Part shown: positions 11,741 to 27,075 of the stretch, one piece after another | How the letters are laid out: each line of letters opens with the position of its first letter | Numbering within the stretch: the stretch's first letter is position 1 | NCBI GenBank assembly: GCA_902760415.1 | Contig: CACWGK010000009.1 | Span: 1-47,660, forward strand | Length of the DNA stretch: 47,660 nucleotides | From: an uncultured Lachnospiraceae bacterium | Lineage (GTDB): Bacteria; Bacillota; Clostridia; Lachnospirales; Lachnospiraceae | Direction of reading: 5' to 3' | Position numbers and translations under genes: made by a program | The notes under the pieces: model-generated | The model's database searches: none | What the model was told of the DNA's origin: nothing | Seen by the model: the letters and a program-made list of their open reading frames with translations, nothing else

Positions 11741-12970
11741 ATGGGAGATATATATGTAGAATTTTTCTCAGATGAAGCGCTGGAAAATGTCATGTGCATT
11801 CTTCAGTATAAGCCAGAGCGCGTAGTTTATCTGGGACACAAATCAACAATGCTCACAAGAAAGATTGAGAGTCTTACAAACTTCGCAAATCTTAAATCAC
11901 CAAAAACAAAGCTTGAGTTTATCGAGGTTCCTAGAGATAATCTCGAAGAATGTATAAAGGCACTAGAAGAAGTATCCGATAAATATCCAGATGCTTTCTA
12001 CGAACTAACCGGCGGCGGAGAAATGATACTTATTGCATTTGGCTATATAAGCGCCACTAAGAAACTTAAGACTCTCCGCATCGATCCATACACAGGCATC
12101 GAAGTCAACATGCTGCCTGGTTCAATACCAACACAGCATAGAGATAATATAAATATAAGTGTTAAGGAAAATATCATACTTCACGGTGGTACGCTTACCA
12201 GACAGACTGGCAGCTTCTGCACCTGGAACTTTACAGATACATTTAAGGAAGATATTCGCACAATCTGGGATATAGCCCGCGGTCTGCAACATAAATGGAA
12301 CTCCTACTGTTCTATTATCGAAGATGTTATCAAGGATTTCCCTTCTGACGAGGACGGACGCTTCTCGTTGCCAAAGACTCAGCTGAGAGATTCAGCAATC
12401 CTCTTCTATAAACTGAATAATAAAGGAATGCTTCGGGATTATCACGAAGATAATAAACGTATACGATTTAGATTTAAGACTGACGCCATACGTCATATCG
12501 TCACAAAGACCGGAAATATTCTGGAGCTCCATGTATATGAAGTAGCTTCCAGAAGACCTGATATCTTCACAGATGAGATAATCGGCGCTATGATCGATTG
12601 GAATGGGGATAAAAACGAAGAAGAAAAGAAAGAGTTTGCATCTAACTACGAGAAGTATATGAATGCAAGCTATGATACGATAAATGAAATCGATGTTATC
12701 CTTATGCAGGCTTGTGTGCCTATATTCATTTCCTGCAAGAGCGGTAAGGCTAGCAGTAATTCACTACATGAGCTCGAGACTGTAACCCACCGTTTTGGCG
12801 GAAAATATGCAAGGAAGGCTCTAGTTATGGCTCTCCCTTGCGATGCTTCTTCCAGCGGCTCCTCCTTCTTCAAGCAACGTGCGAAGGAGATGCACATCTG
12901 GGTTATAGATAATGTATACGCTATGACTGATGAGCAGCTCCTGAAGAAGTTGATGCAGCTTCATAACTAA
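11741..12970 (+). CDS. Orphan Card1/Can2-like CARF nuclease (DUF1887 family)
   Basis: A 409-residue protein. The N-terminal Rossmann-like CARF-type domain (1-135) has the ligand-loop motif ELTGGGEM (88-95). A linker/winged-helix part (about 170-250) follows, and then a PD-(D/E)XK nuclease-like domain (about 255-409) with GNILELHVYE (Glu262), NEIDVIL (Asp318) and FISCKSG (Lys333). In Card1-type enzymes the third motif is ExK; here Ser331 takes the Glu position. Card1/Can2 enzymes are activated by cyclic oligoadenylates in type III CRISPR immunity, but no CRISPR array or cas gene is present. Activity and ligand are therefore open. The last 50 bases overlap the end of dnaB in convergent orientation. 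Confidence 0.85.
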   Translation: MGDIYVEFFSDEALENVMCILQYKPERVVYLGHKSTMLTRKIESLTNFANLKSPKTKLEFIEVPRDNLEECIKALEEVSDKYPDAFYELTGGGEMILIAFGYISATKKLKTLRIDPYTGIEVNMLPGSIPTQHRDNINISVKENIILHGGTLTRQTGSFCTWNFTDTFKEDIRTIWDIARGLQHKWNSYCSIIEDVIKDFPSDEDGRFSLPKTQLRDSAILFYKLNNKGMLRDYHEDNKRIRFRFKTDAIRHIVTKTGNILELHVYEVASRRPDIFTDEIIGAMIDWNGDKNEEEKKEFASNYEKYMNASYDTINEIDVILMQACVPIFISCKSGKASSNSLHELETVTHRFGGKYARKALVMALPCDASSSGSSFFKQRAKEMHIWVIDNVYAMTDEQLLKKLMQLHN

Positions 12971-16897: not shown

Positions 16898-16929
16898 ATA
16901 ATGACTAGGGACGGTTGTCCGTCAATTAT
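16898..16929 (-). other. Hairpin at the valS-gdpP junction
   Basis: GACGG (16910-16914) and CCGTC (16919-16923) close a TTGT loop, and flanking ATAAT/ATTAT arms extend it. It sits at the valS stop codon on the minus strand, without a T-run. It is one of several hairpins at gene junctions in this window. Confidence 0.4.
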
Positions 16930-19592
16930 TTAAGTGCACCGATACGTTCAATCACCTGCTCATAAGTTTCTTTATACTTAGCAAGCTTTTCCTTCTCGGC
17001 ATTTACCTTTGCCTCAGGAGCCTTTTCAACGAAGTTAGGATTTGAGAGCATTCCCTCGCCTCTCTTTATCTCGCCCTCAAGACGAGTCTTTTCCTTATTA
17101 AGTCTCTCCAGCTCCTTCTCTACATCCACGAGTTCTGCAAATGGAATATAGATTACTGCGTTATGGATAACTGCTGATACAGCGTCATCAGCTATACCAG
17201 TCTTATCAGCCTGAACCTTTACTTCACTTGCATATCCAAGTGTTCCGAAGAAGCTTGAGCTATCCTCAAATACCTTACGGATATCTTCCTTATCAGATAC
17301 AACATATACAGCAGCCTTTCTTGAAGGTGGTACATTCATATCTGTTCTTACTGTTCTTATAGCACGAACTGCATCCTTGATGATATCTACATTCTTTGCC
17401 TCAAGTGCAAAGTCTCTTGACTCTTCAGCTACTGGCCATGGTGCTATCATAATAGATTCATCGTCTGTAAGTGTGCAGTAAATCTCTTCTGTAACAAATG
17501 GCATATATGGATGAAGTAACTTAAGACCGATAGACAGAACCTCACGAAGAGTCCAAAGTGCAGCAGCCTTAGTTGTATCATTATCATCCCAAAGTCTTGG
17601 CTTAACCATCTCGATATACCAGTCGCAGAACTCATCCCACAGGAAGTCGTGAATCTTATCTGCAGCAACACCGAGTTCGAACTTCTCCATGTTGTCTGTT
17701 ACATCTCTTACAAGCTGGTTAGCCTTAGCAACTATCCACTTATCTGCCATAGTCAGGTCATCAAGTGTTACAGCATTTATAGCCTCATCAGTGATACCCG
17801 CTTCCTTAGCAGAATCCATATTCATCATGATAAATCTAGAAGCATTCCATATCTTATTAGCAAAGTTACGGCTTGCTGTAAGTCTATCCCAGATAAATCT
17901 CATATCATTTCCAGGAGCATTTCCTGTGATAAGCATGAATCTCAGAGCATCCGCTCCATACTGGTCGATAATCTCCAGTGGATCGATACCATTTCCAAGA
18001 GACTTACTCATCTTACGTCCCTGCTCATCTCTTACAAGTCCATGGAAGAGAACTGTATGGAATGGAACCTTATCTGTCTGCTCAAGTGATGAGAAGATCA
18101 TTCTGATAACCCAGAAGAAAATGATATCGTAACCAGTTACGAGCACATCTGTTGGGAAGAAATACTTGAAGTCCTCTGACTCTGTATCTGGCCAGCCAAC
18201 TGTTGAGAATGGCCAGAGAGCTGATGAGAACCATGTATCAAGTGTATCTTCATCTCTCTTCAGGTTCTTGCTCTGACACTTTGGACAGCAGCATGGCTCA
18301 TCCATCTCTACGATAGTCTCACCACAGTCCTGACAATACCATGCAGGTATTCTATGTCCCCACCAGAGCTGTCTAGATATACACCAGTCGCGCATATTGT
18401 CAATCCAGTTGTAGTAAATCTTATTCATTCTCTCAGGAACAAGCTTTACTTCACCAGTTTCAACAACCTTACGAGCACGAGCAGCCATATCGCTCATCTT
18501 TACGAACCACTGTGGCTTTACAAGTGGCTCAACTGTAGTTCCACATCTATCATGTGTACCTACCATATGAGTATGAGGAACTGTCTTTACAAGAAGTCCC
18601 TGCTTCTCAAGATCCTCAAGAACTGCCTTTCTTGCCTCATATCTCTCCATGCCATGATAACGAGTACCAGGGCAATTGATGGTAGCATCATCATTCATTA
18701 TATTAATCTCTTCAAGGTTATGTCTCTTACCAACCTCAAAGTCGTTAGGGTCATGAGCAGGTGTAATCTTAACACATCCTGTTCCGAACTCCTTATCTAC
18801 ATATGAATCAGCAACAACTGGAATCTCTCTATTAACAAGCGGAAGAAGAAGAGTCTTTCCAACGATGTCTGCATATCTCTCATCCTCTGGATTAACAGCA
18901 ACAGCCGTATCACCAAGAAGAGTCTCTGGACGAGTTGTAGCTATCTCAACAAATCTGCCCTCTTCGCCAACTACTGGATAATTGATATGCCAGAAATGAC
19001 CTTCCTGCTCCTCGTGAATAACCTCAGCGTCAGAGATAGATGTCTGACAAACTGGGCACCAGTTAACTATACGAGAACCTTTATATATCCAGCCCTTATC
19101 ATAGAGCTTCTTAAATACTGTATTAACTGCCTTGTTGTTACCTTCATCCATGGTGAAGCGCTCACGGTCCCAGTCCGCAGAAGAACCAAGTCTCTTCAGC
19201 TGGTTTACGATACGTCCGCCATATTCTTCACGCCACTCCCAGGCTTTCTTCAGGAAGCCTTCTCTTCCAAGATCTTCCTTATCTATTCCCTGCTCCTTAA
19301 GAGCTGCGATAATCTTAACCTCTGTAGCGATAGCTGCATGGTCGGTTCCTGGCTGCCACAGTGCATTATAGCCCTGCATTCTCTTCATACGAATAAGGAT
19401 ATCCTGCATAGTATTATCCAGTGCATGTCCCATATGAAGCTGTCCAGTAATATTTGGAGGTGGCATAACGATTGTAAATGGCTTCTTGCTGCGATCAACT
19501 TCTGCATGGAAGTAACCATTATCAACCCACTTCCTATATAATCTGCCCTCTATCTGTTCAGGGCTGTAATTCTTCTCGAGTTCCTTACTCAT
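16926..19592 (-). CDS. valS: Valyl-tRNA synthetase
   Basis: An 888-residue class I synthetase that charges tRNA-Val. The HIGH-type motif HMGH is at 53-56 (PPPNITGQLHMGH) and KMSKS lies near residue 527. The editing (CP1) domain contains TTRPETLLGDTAV, the zinc-like CxxC clusters are in CQDCGE and CCPKCQ, and a C-terminal coiled-coil arm (about 820-888) is present. It has full bacterial length. The promoter at 19673-19678 leaves a leader of about 75 bases, too short for a T-box. It heads the valS-gdpP-rplI-dnaB transcription unit. Confidence 0.98.
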   Translation of the reverse strand: MSKELEKNYSPEQIEGRLYRKWVDNGYFHAEVDRSKKPFTIVMPPPNITGQLHMGHALDNTMQDILIRMKRMQGYNALWQPGTDHAAIATEVKIIAALKEQGIDKEDLGREGFLKKAWEWREEYGGRIVNQLKRLGSSADWDRERFTMDEGNNKAVNTVFKKLYDKGWIYKGSRIVNWCPVCQTSISDAEVIHEEQEGHFWHINYPVVGEEGRFVEIATTRPETLLGDTAVAVNPEDERYADIVGKTLLLPLVNREIPVVADSYVDKEFGTGCVKITPAHDPNDFEVGKRHNLEEINIMNDDATINCPGTRYHGMERYEARKAVLEDLEKQGLLVKTVPHTHMVGTHDRCGTTVEPLVKPQWFVKMSDMAARARKVVETGEVKLVPERMNKIYYNWIDNMRDWCISRQLWWGHRIPAWYCQDCGETIVEMDEPCCCPKCQSKNLKRDEDTLDTWFSSALWPFSTVGWPDTESEDFKYFFPTDVLVTGYDIIFFWVIRMIFSSLEQTDKVPFHTVLFHGLVRDEQGRKMSKSLGNGIDPLEIIDQYGADALRFMLITGNAPGNDMRFIWDRLTASRNFANKIWNASRFIMMNMDSAKEAGITDEAINAVTLDDLTMADKWIVAKANQLVRDVTDNMEKFELGVAADKIHDFLWDEFCDWYIEMVKPRLWDDNDTTKAAALWTLREVLSIGLKLLHPYMPFVTEEIYCTLTDDESIMIAPWPVAEESRDFALEAKNVDIIKDAVRAIRTVRTDMNVPPSRKAAVYVVSDKEDIRKVFEDSSSFFGTLGYASEVKVQADKTGIADDAVSAVIHNAVIYIPFAELVDVEKELERLNKEKTRLEGEIKRGEGMLSNPNFVEKAPEAKVNAEKEKLAKYKETYEQVIERIGALK

Positions 19593-19745: not shown

Positions 19746-20579
19746 TTATATAGCCTGCTCACGGAAGTCATCCTTAAGCTCGCTCAGGATAATATCCATT
19801 CTCTTATCATAGTCGGTCATATCCTTATTCATCTTATTATATGCCGCACGCTGAAGCATCGCAAATATGGTCATCTCACGAACATCATCCTTAGACTCGC
19901 CAATCTCAGTCATAATCTCTTCAAGATACTCATCTGGAAGTCCCATATTACGTATCTCGTTACGAAGTGATGAGGTATCACCCGTAATAGCTACAATATA
20001 AAAGTAGCTCTTCAGCGAATCTGGATTATCATTCAGCTCATAAGCTCTCATAAAGAAGTTCTTGGCTTCCTCAAGATCCATATTATTTGCTGCAGCAACT
20101 GCACGATTATGATATATATTTCCGAGGAAGACTGGATCAGTCTTCTCATCTGTCACCTGTATGATGTCATCATAAAATGTAGCAGCCTTGATGTACCTTC
20201 TATAAGCGAGGTAACCATCCGCCTTAAGCTTCGCCTTCTGAAGCTTATCCAGCTTGCGGTACTTATGCCAAGCCTCTGTATAATCCTTAATCTCTTCAAC
20301 AGTGTAGTAATTACCTGCGCTGAGAATCTCTATCAGGATATCCTGTGCATAAGCAGTCTTGTTAGTAAGACCCACTAGCTTATCTGCAAGCTCTTCCATA
20401 CCGAGCTCTGTTCTGATCCACTCAAAGAGCTTATCAGAAAGTGCAGACTTACTTATAAGTACTGTATTGTTATAAATATAGAAGCAAAGCTCCTCATATG
20501 TATATATCTCAACCTTTGTATTGAGAAATGTAAAAGGAGTCTCTGCAATCTTCGAAGTACATAGAATTAACTGTGCCAT
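19746..20579 (-). CDS. TPR-containing protein, partner of the Hsp70-like protein
   Basis: A 277-residue soluble protein that I do not recognise by name. Residues 1-100 are a helical domain with an aromatic-rich start (IYTYEELCFYIYNN). Residues about 115-190 form two or three tetratricopeptide-like helical hairpins (GYLAYRRYIKAATFYDDII; NIYHNRAVAAANNMDLEEAK; FFMRAYELNDNPDS). The C-terminus is helical and charged. The start codon overlaps the stop of the upstream Hsp70-like gene (TAATG), so translation is coupled. TPR proteins are common Hsp70 partners, so a co-chaperone-like role is a reasonable inference. The trio with the two upstream genes recurs in Lachnospiraceae as far as I recall. Confidence 0.75.
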   Translation of the reverse strand: MAQLILCTSKIAETPFTFLNTKVEIYTYEELCFYIYNNTVLISKSALSDKLFEWIRTELGMEELADKLVGLTNKTAYAQDILIEILSAGNYYTVEEIKDYTEAWHKYRKLDKLQKAKLKADGYLAYRRYIKAATFYDDIIQVTDEKTDPVFLGNIYHNRAVAAANNMDLEEAKNFFMRAYELNDNPDSLKSYFYIVAITGDTSSLRNEIRNMGLPDEYLEEIMTEIGESKDDVREMTIFAMLQRAAYNKMNKDMTDYDKRMDIILSELKDDFREQAI

Positions 20580-21832
20580 TAGATAGTAAACTCCTTTCGA
20601 TATATTTTGTTAGTAGTCGGATACAACTTTCCGAAACCAAGATCACGTACTATGACCGCTCCCTCACTAGGACTATCAAACTCGACCTCAAGGCTGACCT
20701 TTGTTGTCTTGTTAGGTCTCTTAGGAAGTCCGTGGATCCTTACTGTCTCACGCTTCTCTTCTCCAGTTCTATGATCCTTGTAGACCAGAGTTATCACATC
20801 TGTATCGTCCAGGATGACATTTATCTTGCCGTGAGTGTTATACCACTGCTTTCCACCATTTATAATAGGAACAAATGTATCCTGCTCATCTCCTAGAGAT
20901 ATTCCAATATCTGAGAGAACATTTTCCTTTGTCTCCACAAAGAACTCATCATAGAAACCACGGTACTCACCGCCGACTGCACGGTAGCACGCACCCTTAG
21001 TGTATATATTCTGTCCTACGAAGACTCGTCTTCCCTGGCAGAGTACATTTGTTGACTTCTTCATCCACTTGTTAGAGAAGCCGACTCCTGTCAGGAATAC
21101 TGCTGAGATATAAGCCTTCTTACCTTCATACTCAGCTATCTTCGCGAAATCCATATCCATCTGATATGTATCATTTCCGAACTTAGAAAGTGACATCTGC
21201 TGAGTATAATCCTCATGGATAACATTTATCACCTTAGGTTCTTTATTTCTGCCTATATCTATACGGTAGTAGTTCAGACCATCAGCACTGTAGTCATATA
21301 GAGCCACGCTGTTGTTCCAGAGCTCCGTTGGCTGGTTAAATATGTAATAGAGTCCACTGTCCAGATGGGAGGTGATCTCTATACAGTCCTTGTCGATATC
21401 CATTTCCTGATACAGATTACTTAGAAGTCCAAATATCTCTGGATCATAGGTCTCTACTGAGATAACAAGCTTCTTAATCTCTGCCGCCTCGTAACGATAT
21501 AGGAAAGAATCAATGTGAAGCTTCACCATCATCATGAAGAGTTCCTGATAAGAGTACTCTCTACCAGCGATTTCCAGCTTTCCATCATTTCTAATATTTT
21601 CGAATATGCCATCGACGACCGTTCCATTTTCGTTGAAACGTGCCTCGGATGCTTCGCCGCCAACATACCAGTGCTCAGTGTCAGTACTGTAGAAAAGGAT
21701 GTTAGGCATAAGATACGTATCCTTGTTATTCAATTGGCTGACTGACTCAGGCTCACGCTTGATGTCATTATAGAAGGATAACTGTGTGAAGTCCGAACAG
21801 AGATCCATTCCTATGTAGAAAACATCTGCCAT
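20579..21832 (-). CDS. Hsp70/actin-like protein of unknown function (DUF5716-like)
   Basis: A 417-residue protein with the layout of a short Hsp70. It begins YIGMDLCSDFTQLSFY (6-21), matching the phosphate-1 loop of DnaK (GIDLGTTNS) with G8 and D10 kept. VGGEASEARF (58-66) matches the conserved G-x-x-A segment. VALYDYSADGLNYYRID (176-192) sits where phosphate-2 is expected, but the GGGT core is lost. AVFLTGVGF (244-252) and YTKGACYRAVG (277-287) match the adenosine and connect regions. A beta-rich tail (about 340-417) resembles a substrate-binding domain. Nucleotide binding may be weak or absent. The family name is from memory. It is coupled to the TPR gene and follows the 1333-residue gene. 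Confidence 0.75.
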   Translation of the reverse strand: MADVFYIGMDLCSDFTQLSFYNDIKREPESVSQLNNKDTYLMPNILFYSTDTEHWYVGGEASEARFNENGTVVDGIFENIRNDGKLEIAGREYSYQELFMMMVKLHIDSFLYRYEAAEIKKLVISVETYDPEIFGLLSNLYQEMDIDKDCIEITSHLDSGLYYIFNQPTELWNNSVALYDYSADGLNYYRIDIGRNKEPKVINVIHEDYTQQMSLSKFGNDTYQMDMDFAKIAEYEGKKAYISAVFLTGVGFSNKWMKKSTNVLCQGRRVFVGQNIYTKGACYRAVGGEYRGFYDEFFVETKENVLSDIGISLGDEQDTFVPIINGGKQWYNTHGKINVILDDTDVITLVYKDHRTGEEKRETVRIHGLPKRPNKTTKVSLEVEFDSPSEGAVIVRDLGFGKLYPTTNKIYRKEFTI

Positions 21833-21848
21833 ATCTACTTACCTTTCT

Positions 21849-21889
21849 AATGAGTCACTTCTTACGTCGGACGTAAATGCTGACTCATT
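21849..21889 (-). repeat. Palindromic intergenic element, copy 1 (TTACGT-CGG-ACGTAA core)
   Basis: Outer arms are AATGAGTCA (21849-21857) and TGACTCATT (21881-21889). Then come 4x4 internal loops, inner arms TTACGT/ACGTAA (21862-21867 and 21871-21876) and a CGG triloop. It lies 4 bases after the stop of the giant gene and before the Hsp70-like gene. A near-identical copy is at 32890-32940. Confidence 0.75.
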
Positions 21890-21893
21890 TTCG

Positions 21894-24800
21894 TTATAGT
21901 ATCTTCAGAGTTTCTTCGAAGAGGTGAACGGTATTGATGTAAACATCCAGATCCTCGAGTAATTCTTTGTCTTTACGCATTTCCTGCTTAACAAGCATCG
22001 AGTTGATTCTCTCGAAACGGCTAAGGCTCTTGCCAGAGAAGGACCTCTTCTTCAGAACCTCACTCTCAACAATCTTTGCATTTCCGTTAGGATCATCCTC
22101 TATAGAGTATACAAGTCGTTCACCGTGGAATACGACAAACTCCAGAACATATACACCGCTTACAACCTCTTCCAGTCTGCGGCGCTCAGTCTTCTGCTTG
22201 TTTCTTGTACCAGTATCAAAGCTGTACTTAACGTATACCTGACGCTGTCTATCAGACTTATAGATAAGATAAGTCTTAAGGAATATATCCTGTGGAAGTC
22301 TGATAAATGATGCGAAGTTCTTGAAGAACGGAAGTATCTTACCAGCATCTACGAACTTCTCTACATTGTCTACTATCCAGTTTCTCTGAAGATCTGTAAA
22401 TCTCTCCAGCTTACTAAAGTACAGCAGCAGTGACATTATAGATATCTCATCGTCGATGTTGCCCTTCACAACTTCCTGGAACAGTGCATCGAAGATAAAG
22501 CTTGGCACCTGATCATCTCGTACGAGATAGTTATGTGCCGACAGTCTTACGAAGGCCTTTACGACGAGGCCTCTACTTCTGCCACTATAATATGTAAGAA
22601 ATACATCATATATATATTCAATATATGTATCTGAGAACATCATCTGTGCCAGAGTATTCTCAGCAAGCGGTCCAACATCCGCTACCCTATCCTTAGAAAG
22701 TTTGAAGAGATCAGCAAGTTCCTCAATACTTCCCTTAAAGTTAGAGGCAAGGTAACCAAGGATATTAGAGTTAACTGTTCCCGTCTTATACAGGTTGATA
22801 CAGATAGACATCAGGTCCTCGTTAAGGAATCCCTCTGAGTCAGTAACACCGTAGTCAGCCAGACGATAAAGCTCGTTAACATCCAACTCGTTAAATCCGT
22901 AAAGCTTAACTGCCTGGAACGCCTTATCGAACATATTCATATCGATAAGATAAGTAATAACTGTTCTCGCATTTGCATGTGACAGATATTCTATATCCAG
23001 CCTGCTCAGATACTTTATAAGTACATCTGTATCCAGATTCTCATGATAATACTCTATGATATTAAGGCAAGCCTGCTGCTTGTAATCATAAGATATTTCA
23101 TCACACTGGATAATCTCTCTAGCAGCATTTACTTCCTTAGCATTCTTATATGTGAACTGTCCTATACTCTCATAGTTAAAGAGCAGGACTCTATAATCTC
23201 TTGGACTATACTCGCGGCAGATTGGCATATAAGCCTTCTCATCAACGATTCTCTCGAAATGATATGGTATAGAACCTGCATAGCGGTTACCATTCTTATC
23301 CTCGAAAATGATTGATGCATTATCAGACAGAATCTCGACGTAGGCTTCGCCATTTACAAGTGGGATTCTCTGAACTGCCTGCAGCTCTTCGTGGCTTACG
23401 ATGACAGCTGCCACATTCTTGTTATTACAAACTATCTTACGACGGAAAATGATATTAATGAGTTTTCCTGCATAAAGTGAGCTTACATTCTCTGGCTCCA
23501 GGAACTCATCATATATAACCGTCAGATCATCATTAACCTTACCACGGATGATCATGTTCTCCATAAAATCTTCCATAGTTGGAGCATACTCATGATAAAT
23601 CTTCATATGCTCTGACTTGTTGAAGATAACATTTGCATATAGATATGCCAGCTCATCCTCAGTAAGTGTATTCTTGTAATTAAGATACATCAGAACCGAA
23701 GTAGGAATCAGGTCGTACTTATCACGATTCATACTTCTTATATAGCACTCATTTAGTCCGATAAACTTGAGACTCTTCAGTACCGCAGCCTTATAAAATC
23801 TGTGATACTTATGATCCAGCATGTTCGCGGAAATGAGCATGGAACAGATACTCGAAAGCACCTCCAGGTTCTCATTTTCTCTACGAGTCAGCTTCTCGGC
23901 AGCATCTGCACGAATCGCAGCATCTATCTTGCTATCAGCCGAGCTCATATCAAGTGAATCATCTACAGACTTGTCACCAAGTTCGTCATCGTCATCGAGA
24001 GCATCTTCGTCATCATCGTCAGACTCATCTTCGTCATCGTACGAATAATCTGAAGGCCCGCCATTTACGAAGAAGTCTTCTATGTCATCATCTTCTTCAT
24101 CCATAGAAGCATCGAAACGGACACTGCCAAGCTCCGAATCTCCATACTTTCCAAACTCAAATGACATATCCTCAAGGGACTCGTCATCATACTCATGTAT
24201 AGAAGTAAGATGTGACTTTGTCATATTGACAGGCATTGAGTCATAGAGCTCACTATCCTCTACGCCTCTCTCTTCAAGCACCTTACGACGTTCAGCCCTA
24301 AGTTCCATCTCATTCTTGTCATAGATTTCCTTCAAGACATCGAATATCTGCTTATTGAACTCTTTATTCTTACCTGCAAGCTTAACAAACTCTAGAAGTA
24401 CCTCATCAGAGATAAACTTATGACGAAGACCCCATTTGATAGAAATGATTTCAAGCTCAGAAAGCTTCTTAAGCATCATAGGGTTAGAATTAAAGAGATT
24501 ACACATCTCGAAGTAGATGATTGGGCTGTTCTCGCCCTCATCAAACATCTGAGACAGTTCTCGGTAAAGTGCCGACTTATCTTCATTATATGTTGCGTCC
24601 ACAAAAAGGAGCAGCCAGAAGTAGAACATCTTTGGCTCCTGTGTGCGGTAGTTTCTTCTTATAAGATGAGCAGTCTTCTCAGTAAACTCATCATCCTTCA
24701 GCATCATCGCCCTTAGATAGTTGTAGTAGCATAGCTGCATTTTGCCCATGCTCTCCTTATCTACGTCGGCCTCGATACGAAGGAACTCCTGCTCGACCTT

Positions 24801-25895
24801 TGAATATTCGCCCGACAGGATGTTCATATGCATTATCGCAAGACGGTACATATCCTCCTCAGGCTCCAGCTCATTCAGAATCTGAAGAGCCTCGAGATTC
24901 TTGGAAATGTACTCATCCAGAGACATACGATCCATACGGAAATCCAGATATGTTCTGGTCAGCATAGTTCTGTTTCTCTTATAGTCTCTGTTGCGGCGAC
25001 GAATGTCCTGATTAGGACGTGCAGTCAGAGGCTTAGCAAGATGGATGTCCACCTCAATCCTCTGATAGATATTTTCTATAATAAGCTTACCTGAGTTCTC
25101 GCCCTCTGGAACATGCTCAGGTGATATAAATACCTTAAGGGAGCAGATATTTCCATTGAAATCCTTTGCAGATATAGTCTTCTTCGAAGGTATGATAAAC
25201 TCCGAATCACTGCGGATTTCCGAAAATGTATAACCCCAGGTATTCTTTGATATGTCTATATTGATACTCTCCGTCTCCGTAGGCATAGCAATATCAATCT
25301 TCGCCTTAGGTACAGAAAGTGTTACAGTTCTCTTCTTAGATACAAGAACGAGGAACTCCTCCATAGCCTGATTAACTGAACGGCTCTCGAGAAGGCTCTC
25401 GTAGGTCTTCTTAAGGATATTCTCCTTATCGATAAATGTCCTGCGGAAATCATCATTTACGAAGAGACGTGCTGCATCATTCCAGTTTCTTTCTGCAAGG
25501 GAGGCAAACTTGAAGAGGTCATCGATTTTCTCATCGTGATGCTTAACGCAAGGCTGAACTATAGAGATATCATAAGGAAGCCTGAACTCTCCACCATCTG
25601 TGATAACATTTATATGTCCGCGGAAGTTCTGGCCAGCCTCAAGACAAGTAGCGTCAAAAGAATACTTCACTGTGAAGTTCCTGCTGATAAAGCTATGGTC
25701 TTCAAAGCGAAGTACGTATCGGCTATCATAAACCATTCCCTTTATAGGATAGTCGTTCAGGCTTTCTACCTGGAACTGTCCCTCATAGATGGTTCCTGCC
25801 TCTATATTAATACTGAACTCATTTTCAGAGATACTTACCAAAGGTCGATCAATCTTAAACTGACCCTTAGCATATTGTTCAACTATTGCCTTCAT
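21894..25895 (-). CDS. Giant repeat-rich protein of unknown function (DUF5717-like)
   Basis: A 1333-residue protein without signal peptide or membrane helix, so probably cytoplasmic. Residues 1-115 and about 190-290 look like beta-sandwich domains (INIEAGTIYEGQFQVESLNDYPIKG; then ISPEHVPEGENSGKLIIENI). A basic segment RRRNRDYKRNR (299-309) leads into long helical repeat stretches (about 315-560 and 665-1190), with a beta insert near 800-890. Residues 599-655 are extremely acidic (DDEDESDDDDEDALDDDDE). The C-terminal 150 residues return to beta structure plus a helix. I match it from memory to DUF5717 of Lachnospiraceae, with no known function. It is first in an operon with an Hsp70-like and a TPR protein. 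Confidence 0.78.
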   Translation of the reverse strand: MKAIVEQYAKGQFKIDRPLVSISENEFSINIEAGTIYEGQFQVESLNDYPIKGMVYDSRYVLRFEDHSFISRNFTVKYSFDATCLEAGQNFRGHINVITDGGEFRLPYDISIVQPCVKHHDEKIDDLFKFASLAERNWNDAARLFVNDDFRRTFIDKENILKKTYESLLESRSVNQAMEEFLVLVSKKRTVTLSVPKAKIDIAMPTETESINIDISKNTWGYTFSEIRSDSEFIIPSKKTISAKDFNGNICSLKVFISPEHVPEGENSGKLIIENIYQRIEVDIHLAKPLTARPNQDIRRRNRDYKRNRTMLTRTYLDFRMDRMSLDEYISKNLEALQILNELEPEEDMYRLAIMHMNILSGEYSKVEQEFLRIEADVDKESMGKMQLCYYNYLRAMMLKDDEFTEKTAHLIRRNYRTQEPKMFYFWLLLFVDATYNEDKSALYRELSQMFDEGENSPIIYFEMCNLFNSNPMMLKKLSELEIISIKWGLRHKFISDEVLLEFVKLAGKNKEFNKQIFDVLKEIYDKNEMELRAERRKVLEERGVEDSELYDSMPVNMTKSHLTSIHEYDDESLEDMSFEFGKYGDSELGSVRFDASMDEEDDDIEDFFVNGGPSDYSYDDEDESDDDDEDALDDDDELGDKSVDDSLDMSSADSKIDAAIRADAAEKLTRRENENLEVLSSICSMLISANMLDHKYHRFYKAAVLKSLKFIGLNECYIRSMNRDKYDLIPTSVLMYLNYKNTLTEDELAYLYANVIFNKSEHMKIYHEYAPTMEDFMENMIIRGKVNDDLTVIYDEFLEPENVSSLYAGKLINIIFRRKIVCNNKNVAAVIVSHEELQAVQRIPLVNGEAYVEILSDNASIIFEDKNGNRYAGSIPYHFERIVDEKAYMPICREYSPRDYRVLLFNYESIGQFTYKNAKEVNAAREIIQCDEISYDYKQQACLNIIEYYHENLDTDVLIKYLSRLDIEYLSHANARTVITYLIDMNMFDKAFQAVKLYGFNELDVNELYRLADYGVTDSEGFLNEDLMSICINLYKTGTVNSNILGYLASNFKGSIEELADLFKLSKDRVADVGPLAENTLAQMMFSDTYIEYIYDVFLTYYSGRSRGLVVKAFVRLSAHNYLVRDDQVPSFIFDALFQEVVKGNIDDEISIMSLLLYFSKLERFTDLQRNWIVDNVEKFVDAGKILPFFKNFASFIRLPQDIFLKTYLIYKSDRQRQVYVKYSFDTGTRNKQKTERRRLEEVVSGVYVLEFVVFHGERLVYSIEDDPNGNAKIVESEVLKKRSFSGKSLSRFERINSMLVKQEMRKDKELLEDLDVYINTVHLFEETLKIL

Positions 25896-26022: not shown

Positions 26023-27075
26023 ATGAATACTTCTCAGCTCAGAATATCTCAGTACGAAACAGTTCTCTTTAATGCAAATCTCAATCCAAAGGGAATTCCG
26101 AACACAGTAAGAAATGCAATCAAGGAGAACATCGACACAATCGTCAAGTATCCCGACATATACTATACAAAACTCAAGACTGCGGTTTCATCCTATGTTG
26201 ATGCACCACTGGATAGTATTATCATGGGAAATGGTTCTACAGACCTGCTGAAGCTTTTTGCAACTCTGATTCATCCAAAGAAGACTATGCTGATCTCTCC
26301 TGGACCAAGTGAGTATGCAAATGTGCTCTCCGACCACGATACAGATATCGTATATTTCGACCTTGGCGAAGAGGACGACTTCACGTTGGATATACACAAG
26401 CTATCAGCTGCCCTCACAGATGATCTGGACATGCTGATCGTTGCAAATCCTAACAATCCAACATCTAAGAAGATTTCACATGCTGATATGAAGTCTCTCG
26501 TTGAAGTCTGCGAAGCAAAAGATATCTTCCTTATCATCGACGAGATGTATATCGAGTTCATCGATAACTATCTGGACTTCACTGCAGTTCCGCTCACTAA
26601 CGAATATAGCAACATCGCTGTTATCAGAAGTGTATCTAAGTTCTTTGCAGTACCAGGCCTGAGATTCGCCTATGCAGTCATGAATAATCCTGAATATAAA
26701 GAGATCATCGACCGCATCACTACTAAGAACAACATTGCTTCTCTCACAGCTATTGCTATCACGGAAATGTTTAAAGACCAGGAATATATCGAAGATTCCC
26801 AGTCTATCATTCACACAGAGAGATCTCTTGTATATCTTGCGATGTCAACCAGCAAGACCATCAAGCTTATCAAACCAGACGCAAACTTCATGCTTGTTAA
26901 GCTTCTGAAGGATGACATCACTGCTTCCGATGTTGCAGTTCACTGTAATCAGCGAGGAATAATCATCCGTAAATGCGACGACATCCGCGGACTTAGCAAT
27001 AAGTACATCCGTATCTGCTTCATGAATCCAAAGCAGAACGACCTGATGGTAAACACCATCCTAGAAATTGTTTAG
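26023..27075 (+). CDS. PLP-dependent aminotransferase (HisC/CobD-like)
   Basis: A fold-type I class II aminotransferase of 350 residues. NPNNPTSK (142-149) carries the PLP-binding Asn. Asp173 in IIDEMYIEF contacts the pyridine nitrogen, and Tyr176 is present. The Schiff-base lysine is Lys206 in RSVSKFF, and Arg214 in GLRFAYA binds phosphate. The closest families are histidinol-phosphate aminotransferase and the threonine-phosphate decarboxylase CobD. No histidine or cobalamin genes are adjacent, so the substrate cannot be chosen. The stop codon lies inside an 11-base tandem duplication. Confidence 0.88.
   Translation: MNTSQLRISQYETVLFNANLNPKGIPNTVRNAIKENIDTIVKYPDIYYTKLKTAVSSYVDAPLDSIIMGNGSTDLLKLFATLIHPKKTMLISPGPSEYANVLSDHDTDIVYFDLGEEDDFTLDIHKLSAALTDDLDMLIVANPNNPTSKKISHADMKSLVEVCEAKDIFLIIDEMYIEFIDNYLDFTAVPLTNEYSNIAVIRSVSKFFAVPGLRFAYAVMNNPEYKEIIDRITTKNNIASLTAIAITEMFKDQEYIEDSQSIIHTERSLVYLAMSTSKTIKLIKPDANFMLVKLLKDDITASDVAVHCNQRGIIIRKCDDIRGLSNKYIRICFMNPKQNDLMVNTILEIV

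Follow-up and report, generated by a model that had tools for sequence, protein, structure and literature searches.

Three consecutive minus-strand genes from an uncultured Lachnospiraceae bacterium (assembly GCA_902760415.1), lying on a 47,660-nucleotide stretch of contig CACWGK010000009.1 that was analyzed as a whole and is termed the window below, encode a giant protein of the DUF5717 type, a protein of the DUF5716 family, and a protein with tetratricopeptide (TPR) repeats. Our analysis suggests that this trio is probably the reduced core of a larger Hsp70 operon, and that in the trio the DUF5716 protein, a pseudo-Hsp70, would act independently of ATP as a client-binding or assembly scaffold. 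The interpretation of the trio as a reduced version of an operon found in sister families is supported by the predicted Hsp70 fold of the DUF5716 protein and its orthology with protein B of that operon, by the motif loss seen in B and DUF5716 but not in the Hsp70s A, C and D, by the loss of subdomain IIB, by the co-occurrence of the three genes, and by an htpG-type gene upstream of some family loci. Hsp70s are usually viewed as ATP machines that operate with a J-protein and an exchange factor. If the above is correct, a large bacterial group carries an unstudied chaperone-derived system, and its versions form a natural series, from an operon in which a pseudo-Hsp70 stands beside a GrpE-domain gene and Hsp70s that look ATP-competent, to a pseudo-Hsp70 alone with the GrpE-binding lobe deleted, which poses the question of what role the substrate domain of an Hsp70 has without ATP. 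It would also provide two DUF families, which almost every sampled genome of the family carries, with a function that can be tested.

Both DUF assignments exceed the curated Pfam cut-offs. The giant protein matches DUF5717_N at an expectation value (E) of 3.4e-274 and the DUF5717 C-terminal domain at 5.3e-65 (PF18984, PF18983; 912.3 and 220 bits against 25 bits in each case), as expected from an earlier reading of the window from its letters alone (the sequence-only reading), and the DUF5716 protein matches DUF5716_C at 1.5e-97 (PF18980; 326.6 against 34.7 bits). The families have no assigned function, and their Pfam descriptions link them neither to Hsp70 nor to each other. In the open-access literature, which leaves out most subscription journals, no functional work on these proteins was found; DUF5717 is unmentioned, and DUF5716 appears only in work titled on mismatch repair and curcuma derivatives.

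The DUF5716 protein is predicted to have an Hsp70 fold

An AlphaFold2 model of the DUF5716 protein, based on an alignment of its sequence and those of 65 of 80 relatives from named genomes (thinned for size), has a mean predicted local distance difference test score (pLDDT) of 91.0 and a predicted template modelling score (pTM) of 0.88. A fold search with this model recovered 403 PDB matches at E <=0.001, of which the best 50 are nearly all members of the Hsp70 family, including DnaK, Hsc70, BiP, mortalin, Ssb, the ribosome-associated complex (RAC) with Ssz1, and Hsp110. The top match has an E of 1.1e-20, the query-normalized TM-score reaches 0.60 with DnaK, and the match to DnaK spans the nucleotide-binding domain (NBD) and the beta part of the substrate-binding domain (SBD-beta) over about 510 alignment columns including gaps. 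The root-mean-square deviations are high, about 9 to 23, which probably reflects differing poses of the domains. The prediction of an Hsp70 fold, with an actin-like core followed by an SBD-beta, is accordingly a confident one; the best 50 matches are nearly all Hsp70s rather than proteins of an unrelated fold, in keeping with the Hsp70/actin fold that the sequence-only reading had proposed.

The order of strands and helices in the model is that of NBD lobes IA, IB and IIA followed by SBD-beta, the lobe names being those of DnaK. The third strand of lobe II (residues 200-208) runs directly to the last helix of IIA (residues 222-239), leaving no room for subdomain IIB, and the model finishes as a beta strand at residue 416 of 417, the helical lid (SBD-alpha) being absent. 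Among 35 DUF5716 sequences seven residues are invariant, three of which (D397, G399 and G401) belong to the SBD-beta-like domain. Searches with sequence only were nearly blind to this kinship: the best PDB match had an E of 0.31 and that of the profile an E of 1, and PF00012 did not match the window protein at E up to 1. When the family profile was aligned by hhalign with DnaK and a second Hsp70 of the same genome, residues 6-405 aligned with residues 4-471 of DnaK (E 3.7e-5, probability 71).

A larger Hsp70 operon in sister families

In a sample of the class, PF18980 was found in 10 of 291 genomes, all within the family, and PF18984 in 11, namely the 10 family members and one genome with a sub-threshold match (G116; G and L numbers denote our genomes and loci). 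Restriction of the system to the family, as the first count would have it, was rejected because PF18984 is present outside it in a sample of the order, where 75 of 146 genomes match at E <=1e-3 (74 over the cut-off), 60 of them being among the 131 genomes from other families. In these, DUF5717 is often encoded as two open reading frames (ORFs) of about 400 and 900 aa. We studied 20 sister regions from 18 genomes chosen by hand among the 60 with a match, 13 of the 18 being extended downstream.

The sister regions contain an operon with the order DUF5717 (often split), Hsp70-A, a GrpE-domain protein (G), B, Hsp70-C, Hsp70-D with a VWA domain, and TPR, sometimes followed by CC4, a protein of about 400 aa with a coiled coil and, by eye, a pair of hydrophobic segments, and by valS. 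A DUF5717 part followed by Hsp70-A (about 558 aa) and protein G (279-645 aa) is seen in 16 of the 18 genomes, while B and C were each recognized in 14, B by similarity, with some regions ending before the operon does; a further 412-aa ORF in L204 was tentatively placed as B only by position and a long branch. Hsp70-D is present in all 13 extended loci and a TPR gene, identified by profile, in 12, with a 308-aa ORF standing in its place in L226; CC4 is found in five, followed by valS in four. Pfam recognizes a GrpE domain in five of six tested G proteins (5.4e-11 to 8.5e-15; none in that of L200), HSP70 in the scanned A, C and D proteins, and a C-terminal VWA domain in both intact Hsp70-D proteins scanned. 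The B protein of L198 matches DUF5716_C (6.2e-23) and HSP70 (3.3e-22) at once, thereby bridging the two families in a single sequence. Hsp70-A proteins of other sister families are 58-92% identical to that of L198. An aminotransferase relative adjoins DUF5717 in 8 of the 20 first sister regions, and the window order (divergent aminotransferase, DUF5717, DUF5716, TPR, valS) equals that of the sister operon minus A, G, C, D and CC4.

Some minor features of these regions deserve record. In L216 (10205-13384), from the bridge genome G538, Hsp70-D and the TPR gene are each present as two ORFs. Some sister regions have a 414-482 aa protein with a hydrophobic N-terminus upstream of the gene for the DUF5717 N-terminal part (L212:5196-6644, L202:12828-14150, L213:9993-11237, L215:5301-6614 and L209:8904-10256); the three scanned show weak coiled-coil-type Pfam matches, and the CC4 profile gave no match in those regions. 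In L073, whose DUF5717 is short, the 385-aa gene upstream of it was considered as a split N-terminal half and rejected, as it has no profile match.

This larger operon is apparently undescribed, the sole related system found in the open-access literature being the Hsp70/GrpE theme of the GAP1-N2 systems, which combines Hsp70, GrpE, a second Hsp70-like gene and beta-sandwich repeats fused to TPR (Kaur et al. 2020, PMC7159879). The second Hsp70 of those systems is described there as being without the peptide-binding domain, whereas B of the sister operon keeps its SBD-beta. Those systems have a GTPase/GAP1 core, whereas no GTPase, GAP1 or DnaJ match was obtained among the operon proteins scanned here (the flanks being partly scanned). 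The phyletic patterns also differ, DUF5717 being near-universal in one family with one sub-threshold match outside the order in the class sample. At the window locus the neighbors scanned gave no Hsp70 or GrpE gene, while the sister operons have both.

Loss of the ATP motifs and of subdomain IIB

The nucleotide motifs of DnaK were followed in the numbering of the DnaK of the window genome as D8, T11-N13, K70, E147 and G171-T174. In 26 DUF5716 relatives including the window protein, K70 and E147 are retained by none, and T12, N13, G173 and T174 each by at most one (T12 and T174 in 1/26). D8 is kept in 21 and D169 in 19 of the 26; across all B and DUF5716 rows G312 is universally present, and D8 and D169 occur in most. 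Neither GTTN or GTTH in the first 60 residues nor GGGT anywhere was found in 120 DUF5716 rows, corresponding to 116 distinct loci once four identical-protein pairs (L083/L110, L078/L121, L077/L113 and L142/L143) are discounted, as they are in all counts on 116 or 113 loci below; the loss of GGGT from the phosphate-2 loop noted by the sequence-only reading thus extends to the whole set. The B proteins share this condition, with K70, E147 and T174 in none of 15 rows, but T11, T12, K70, E147 and GGGT are intact in every row of A (16), C (13) and D (2).

The spacing between the phosphate-2 and adenosine motifs points to a second, later loss. It is 143 residues in DnaK, 133-182 across DnaK, the second Hsp70 of the genome, A, B, C and D, and for the 14 B proteins recognized by similarity has a median of 142 (range 133-152), with 117 in the tentative B of L204, whereas in DUF5716 the median is 72 (range 63-78). 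By this measure subdomain IIB is gone from DUF5716 within the family. IIB is the lobe of DnaK bound by GrpE, and at the family locus both the lobe and the GrpE-domain gene are gone. In sum, the DUF5716 protein shares with DnaK the NBD core and SBD-beta in the same order, but differs from it in being without TTN, K70, E147, GGGT, IIB and the lid. An ATP-driven form of the actin-fold switch envisaged by the sequence-only reading is unlikely in view of the loss of K70, E147, T12, N13, G173 and T174 together with IIB, and the pseudo-ATPase, which that reading gave as its alternative, is better supported by these losses.

Phylogeny and the direction of change

A maximum-likelihood tree was computed for 60 Hsp70-like proteins, including 8 of 16 A, 7 of 13 C (every second one) and 26 of 120 DUF5716 rows, with one partial Hsp70-D left out, and was rooted on the DnaK and second Hsp70 of the window genome. 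The DUF5716 rows form one clade (support 100/99) with the B protein of L199 as its sister (99/95), and the clade of B and DUF5716 (100/100) joins C at 100/100. Four B rows, one of them tentative, fall on the DUF5716 side of a split (98/95) that separates them from the remaining eleven. B is thereby divided by DUF5716, which makes a loss in the family simpler than a gain in the sisters. Some long branches and differences in composition leave the inner order of B unsure. The direction of change thus appears to have been reduction in the family. Sequence, predicted fold, tree and synteny together make it nearly certain that DUF5716 is the orthologue of B of the sister operon and descended from Hsp70. 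They also support a scenario in which the residues of B for catalysis and phosphate binding would have disappeared before the origin of the family, with IIB being lost later, within the family.

Distribution and gene order in the family

DUF5716 is found in 244 and DUF5717 in 245 of 250 family genomes, a near-universal presence that looks like core inheritance. Five genomes (G310, G486, G387, G417 and G435) are without one of the two, four of these being 67-70% complete and G387 99%. The trio is contiguous on one strand in 37 of 40 regions fetched from 39 family genomes, the exceptions being both parts of G328 and a contig end in G299. A scan of named genomes gave at least 593 stretches with relatives, of which 80 were kept; in these, TPR lies after DUF5716 in 78 cases and DUF5717 before it in 79, and the three missing neighbors are accounted for by contig ends within 124 bases. 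Three of the 80 lie on the same contigs as fetched regions, with one identical-protein pair among them. The contiguous order in both sets indicates that the trio is not a chance arrangement; routine separation of the genes, which would have refuted the single system that the sequence-only reading had proposed, is not seen, the 39 genomes showing a break only in G328 and a contig end only in G299. Most of the named loci are titled Lachnospiraceae or with genera that we take to belong there, and the others Clostridiales, Clostridia, Eubacteriales, Bacillota or bacterium; one is a metagenome-assembled genome titled Gastranaerophilales.

The trio has recurrent neighbors. Of the 116 distinct loci, 77 have CC4, almost always immediately behind TPR, and a search of the 250 family genomes was positive for it in 113 at E <=1e-3 (108 at 1e-17 or better). 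A gene of htpG (Hsp90) type, a label based on clustering and on the Pfam match of a single member, is found upstream in the same orientation in 32 of the 116, and is the direct neighbor of DUF5717 at 12-141 bases in six loci (L183, L160, L173, L174, L182 and L096). In 25 of the 113 family loci that are distinct, a relative of the aminotransferase is oriented away from DUF5717 at no more than 600 bp from it. Exact sites of the heat-shock element CIRCE were found in 21 of 228 loci; among those whose positions were compared, the sites of L113, L123 and L096 lie just in front of an htpG-type gene, and that of L194 in a dnaK region. In L096 the htpG-type gene behind the exact site is the one that directly precedes DUF5717.

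The giant DUF5717 protein and the TPR protein

The DUF5717 alignment comprises the window protein and 61 of 79 relatives (thinned for size). DUF5717 was modeled as a 1188-aa relative (L110) standing in for the window protein. The model has a pLDDT of 87 and a pTM of 0.58, so that the domains are fairly reliable and their arrangement is not. It contains beta domains at residues 23-127, 197-292, 675-739 and 1063-1136, a helical solenoid that follows the second beta domain and resumes after the third, and C-terminal helices. DUF5717 is thus predicted to consist of an N-terminus of paired beta-sandwiches of an Ig/ASH-like type, a TPR-like alpha-solenoid, further beta domains and C-terminal helices. 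Its fold matches (best E 2.5e-7) include the CEP192 SPD-2 domain and structural chains from the central apparatus of cilia, matched over about 290 columns and of the Ig/ASH type, and, for the long solenoid, the TPR scaffolds of the Ski complex, IFT-A, Ctr9 and NatA; these are weak likenesses at the level of the fold rather than family assignments. A PDB sequence search with DUF5717 gave a single chance-level row (E 1). The acidic belt that the sequence-only reading saw in the giant is real, but it is an insert that is absent in nine compared relatives outside the same-genus L086, which has its own, less acidic insert at that site (36 D/E in 132 residues).

For the TPR protein that reading holds at the level of the family, a profile of 39 sequences including the window protein matching TPR structures, designed TPRs, at 5.5e-34, and less well for the single sequence, whose TPR_8 match is weak (0.0023, below cut-off). 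The first 100 or so residues are, by eye, conserved apart from the repeats. TPR co-chaperones such as HOP and CHIP have a dicarboxylate clamp, formed in HOP TPR1 by K8, N12, N43, K73 and R77; with the register set by eye, the TPR family has a K8-like K in 36 of 39 sequences, an N43-like N in 35 of 39, and at the N12-like site a D in 36 of 39.

Proposed function and alternatives

We propose that the DUF5716 protein would no longer run an ATP cycle, and that its SBD-beta-like domain would bind client or partner proteins. DUF5717, with its pairs of beta-sandwiches and TPR-like solenoid, could be the scaffold holding this domain and the TPR protein an adaptor, so that the trio might work as an ATP-independent holdase or assembly platform, with a possible hand-over of clients to the general DnaK or HtpG; in genomes with CC4, which is probably membrane-bound, the trio might be docked at the membrane. 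This holdase or assembly role is a tentative assignment. With about even confidence, we further suggest that a multi-Hsp70 machine exists in many families of a single clostridial order and was stripped in one large family to a near-universal ATP-free trio. Its parts would be up to three ATP-motif-intact Hsp70s, one of them with a VWA tail, an obligate pseudo-Hsp70, an exchange factor containing a GrpE fusion, a TPR adaptor and a giant scaffold of beta-sandwiches and solenoid. The near-universal presence of the ATP-free trio would then mean that a pseudo-Hsp70 together with its scaffold is enough for the central task, with no need of ATP.

Several observations weigh against this interpretation. 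Three family genomes (G318, G380 and G512), themselves candidates for natural loss, match neither DUF5716 nor DUF5717, and in G328 DUF5717 lies on another contig, apart from the other two genes. Outside the family PF18984 reaches only 60 of 131 genomes of the order sample; two of the 18 sister genomes (G617 and G646) show DUF5717 parts but no Hsp70 beside them within the region seen, and the DUF5717 halves are on different contigs in G617 and also in G580. CC4 was not found in the window genome by a search that was positive in 113 of 250 others. The window contains no CIRCE site with up to three mismatches allowed, and hence no sign of heat-shock control by HrcA; such control of the trio was rejected on this ground.

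The best surviving alternative, which we regard as unlikely, is that DUF5716 is a dedicated co-chaperone of the general DnaK, recruiting or stimulating it without ATP cycling of its own while DUF5717 and TPR deliver a client set. Yeast Ssz1 and Hsp110/Sse1 are Hsp70-derived proteins that assist other Hsp70s, and the presence of RAC and Hsp110 structures among the best 50 of the 403 fold matches, the retention in the window genome of a DnaK with intact motifs, the operon shared with active Hsp70s in sister families, and the htpG-type gene upstream in 32 of 116 distinct loci are all in its favor. Ssz1 and Sse1, however, keep subdomain IIB; its loss from the DUF5716 protein makes nucleotide exchange through an IIB contact hard, and no J-protein partner was found at the trio. 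Moreover, the Hsp70-A of the operon was not found in a family sample of 120 genomes, where the best match has 190 bits and identity is at most 41% among the matches listed.

Somewhat less probable still is a structural assembly without chaperone function, in which the Hsp70 fold would be retained solely for its rigidity, as an adaptor within a DUF5717 scaffold that is cytoplasmic or bound to the membrane. The best, if weak, DUF5717 fold matches to the ciliary central apparatus, CEP192 SPD-2 and then TPR scaffolds would suit such a function, as would the coiled coils and hydrophobic segment pair of CC4 and the acidic insert of the giant. Against this, three of the seven invariant residues of DUF5716 lie in the SBD-beta-like domain, and the sister operon contains motif-intact Hsp70s and a GrpE domain. 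A conflict or defense system resembling the GAP1-N2 GTPase systems, to which the similar parts list of Hsp70, GrpE, a second Hsp70-like gene and FNIII with TPR or DnaJ (PMC7159879) might point, is very improbable and was rejected, given that PADLOC, run on the window proteins, was negative for the three, that GTPase, GAP1 and J-domain Pfam matches are absent among the operon proteins scanned, and that DUF5716 and DUF5717 occur in almost all family genomes (244 and 245 of 250).

The window locus and other Hsp70s of the genome

The coordinates of the locus are collected in Table 1. The three consecutive ORFs, the TAATG junction of the last two genes and the motifs of the DUF5716 protein are all present in the DNA and its translation as the sequence-only reading described them.

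Table 1. Features of the trio and its flanks in the window
Feature	Position	Strand	Remarks
DUF5717 giant protein gene	21894..25895	-	1333 aa; ORF and Pfam
DUF5717 C-terminal domain, residues 1026-1327	21915..22820	-	Pfam
Acidic insert of the DUF5717 giant, residues 533-675	23871..24299	-	52 D/E in 143 residues
DUF5716 pseudo-Hsp70 gene	20579..21832	-	417 aa; NBD lobes IA, IB and IIA without IIB, then SBD-beta; lid absent (predicted)
Degenerate phosphate-1 region of DUF5716, residues 8-19	21776..21811	-	TTN motif of DnaK lost
Adenosine-motif-like region of DUF5716 and next helix, residues 245-285	20978..21100	-	many residues conserved family-wide
SBD-beta-like tail of DUF5716, residues ~301-417	20582..20932	-	DLGFG motif, with the invariant D397, G399 and G401
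TAATG overlap of DUF5716 stop and TPR start	20577..20581	-	
TPR protein gene	19746..20579	-	277 aa; TPR repeats preceded by a conserved N-terminal part (residues ~1-100, by eye)
valS	16926..19592	-	right flank of trio
Class I/II aminotransferase gene	26023..27075	+	left flank, divergent

The gap between the DUF5717 and DUF5716 genes is 61 bases long (window 21833-21893) and contains an inverted repeat, ATGAGTCA...TGACTCAT, which may form a hairpin for processing or attenuation. A scan for promoters and terminators gave site counts close to those of shuffled sequences (18 against 19.9 and 4 against 3.3). Elsewhere in the window, a 409-aa protein (11741-12970) has a weak match to CARF_Card1 (E 3.2e-4, below cut-off).

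In the window genome PF00012 matches DnaK (in two segments) and a second Hsp70; it also weakly matches a 335-aa frame, in our view MreB. The nucleotide motifs of DnaK are intact, and its gene lies in what appears, from our own labeling of the genes, to be an HrcA-GrpE-DnaK-DnaJ operon. The second Hsp70 (562 aa; PF00012 2.9e-129), on contig C46 of the same genome (L195:2960-8492), follows a 1276-aa TPR giant whose N-terminus is J-like by eye, with no DnaJ match in Pfam; the pair constitutes another case of an Hsp70 with a giant TPR partner in this genome.

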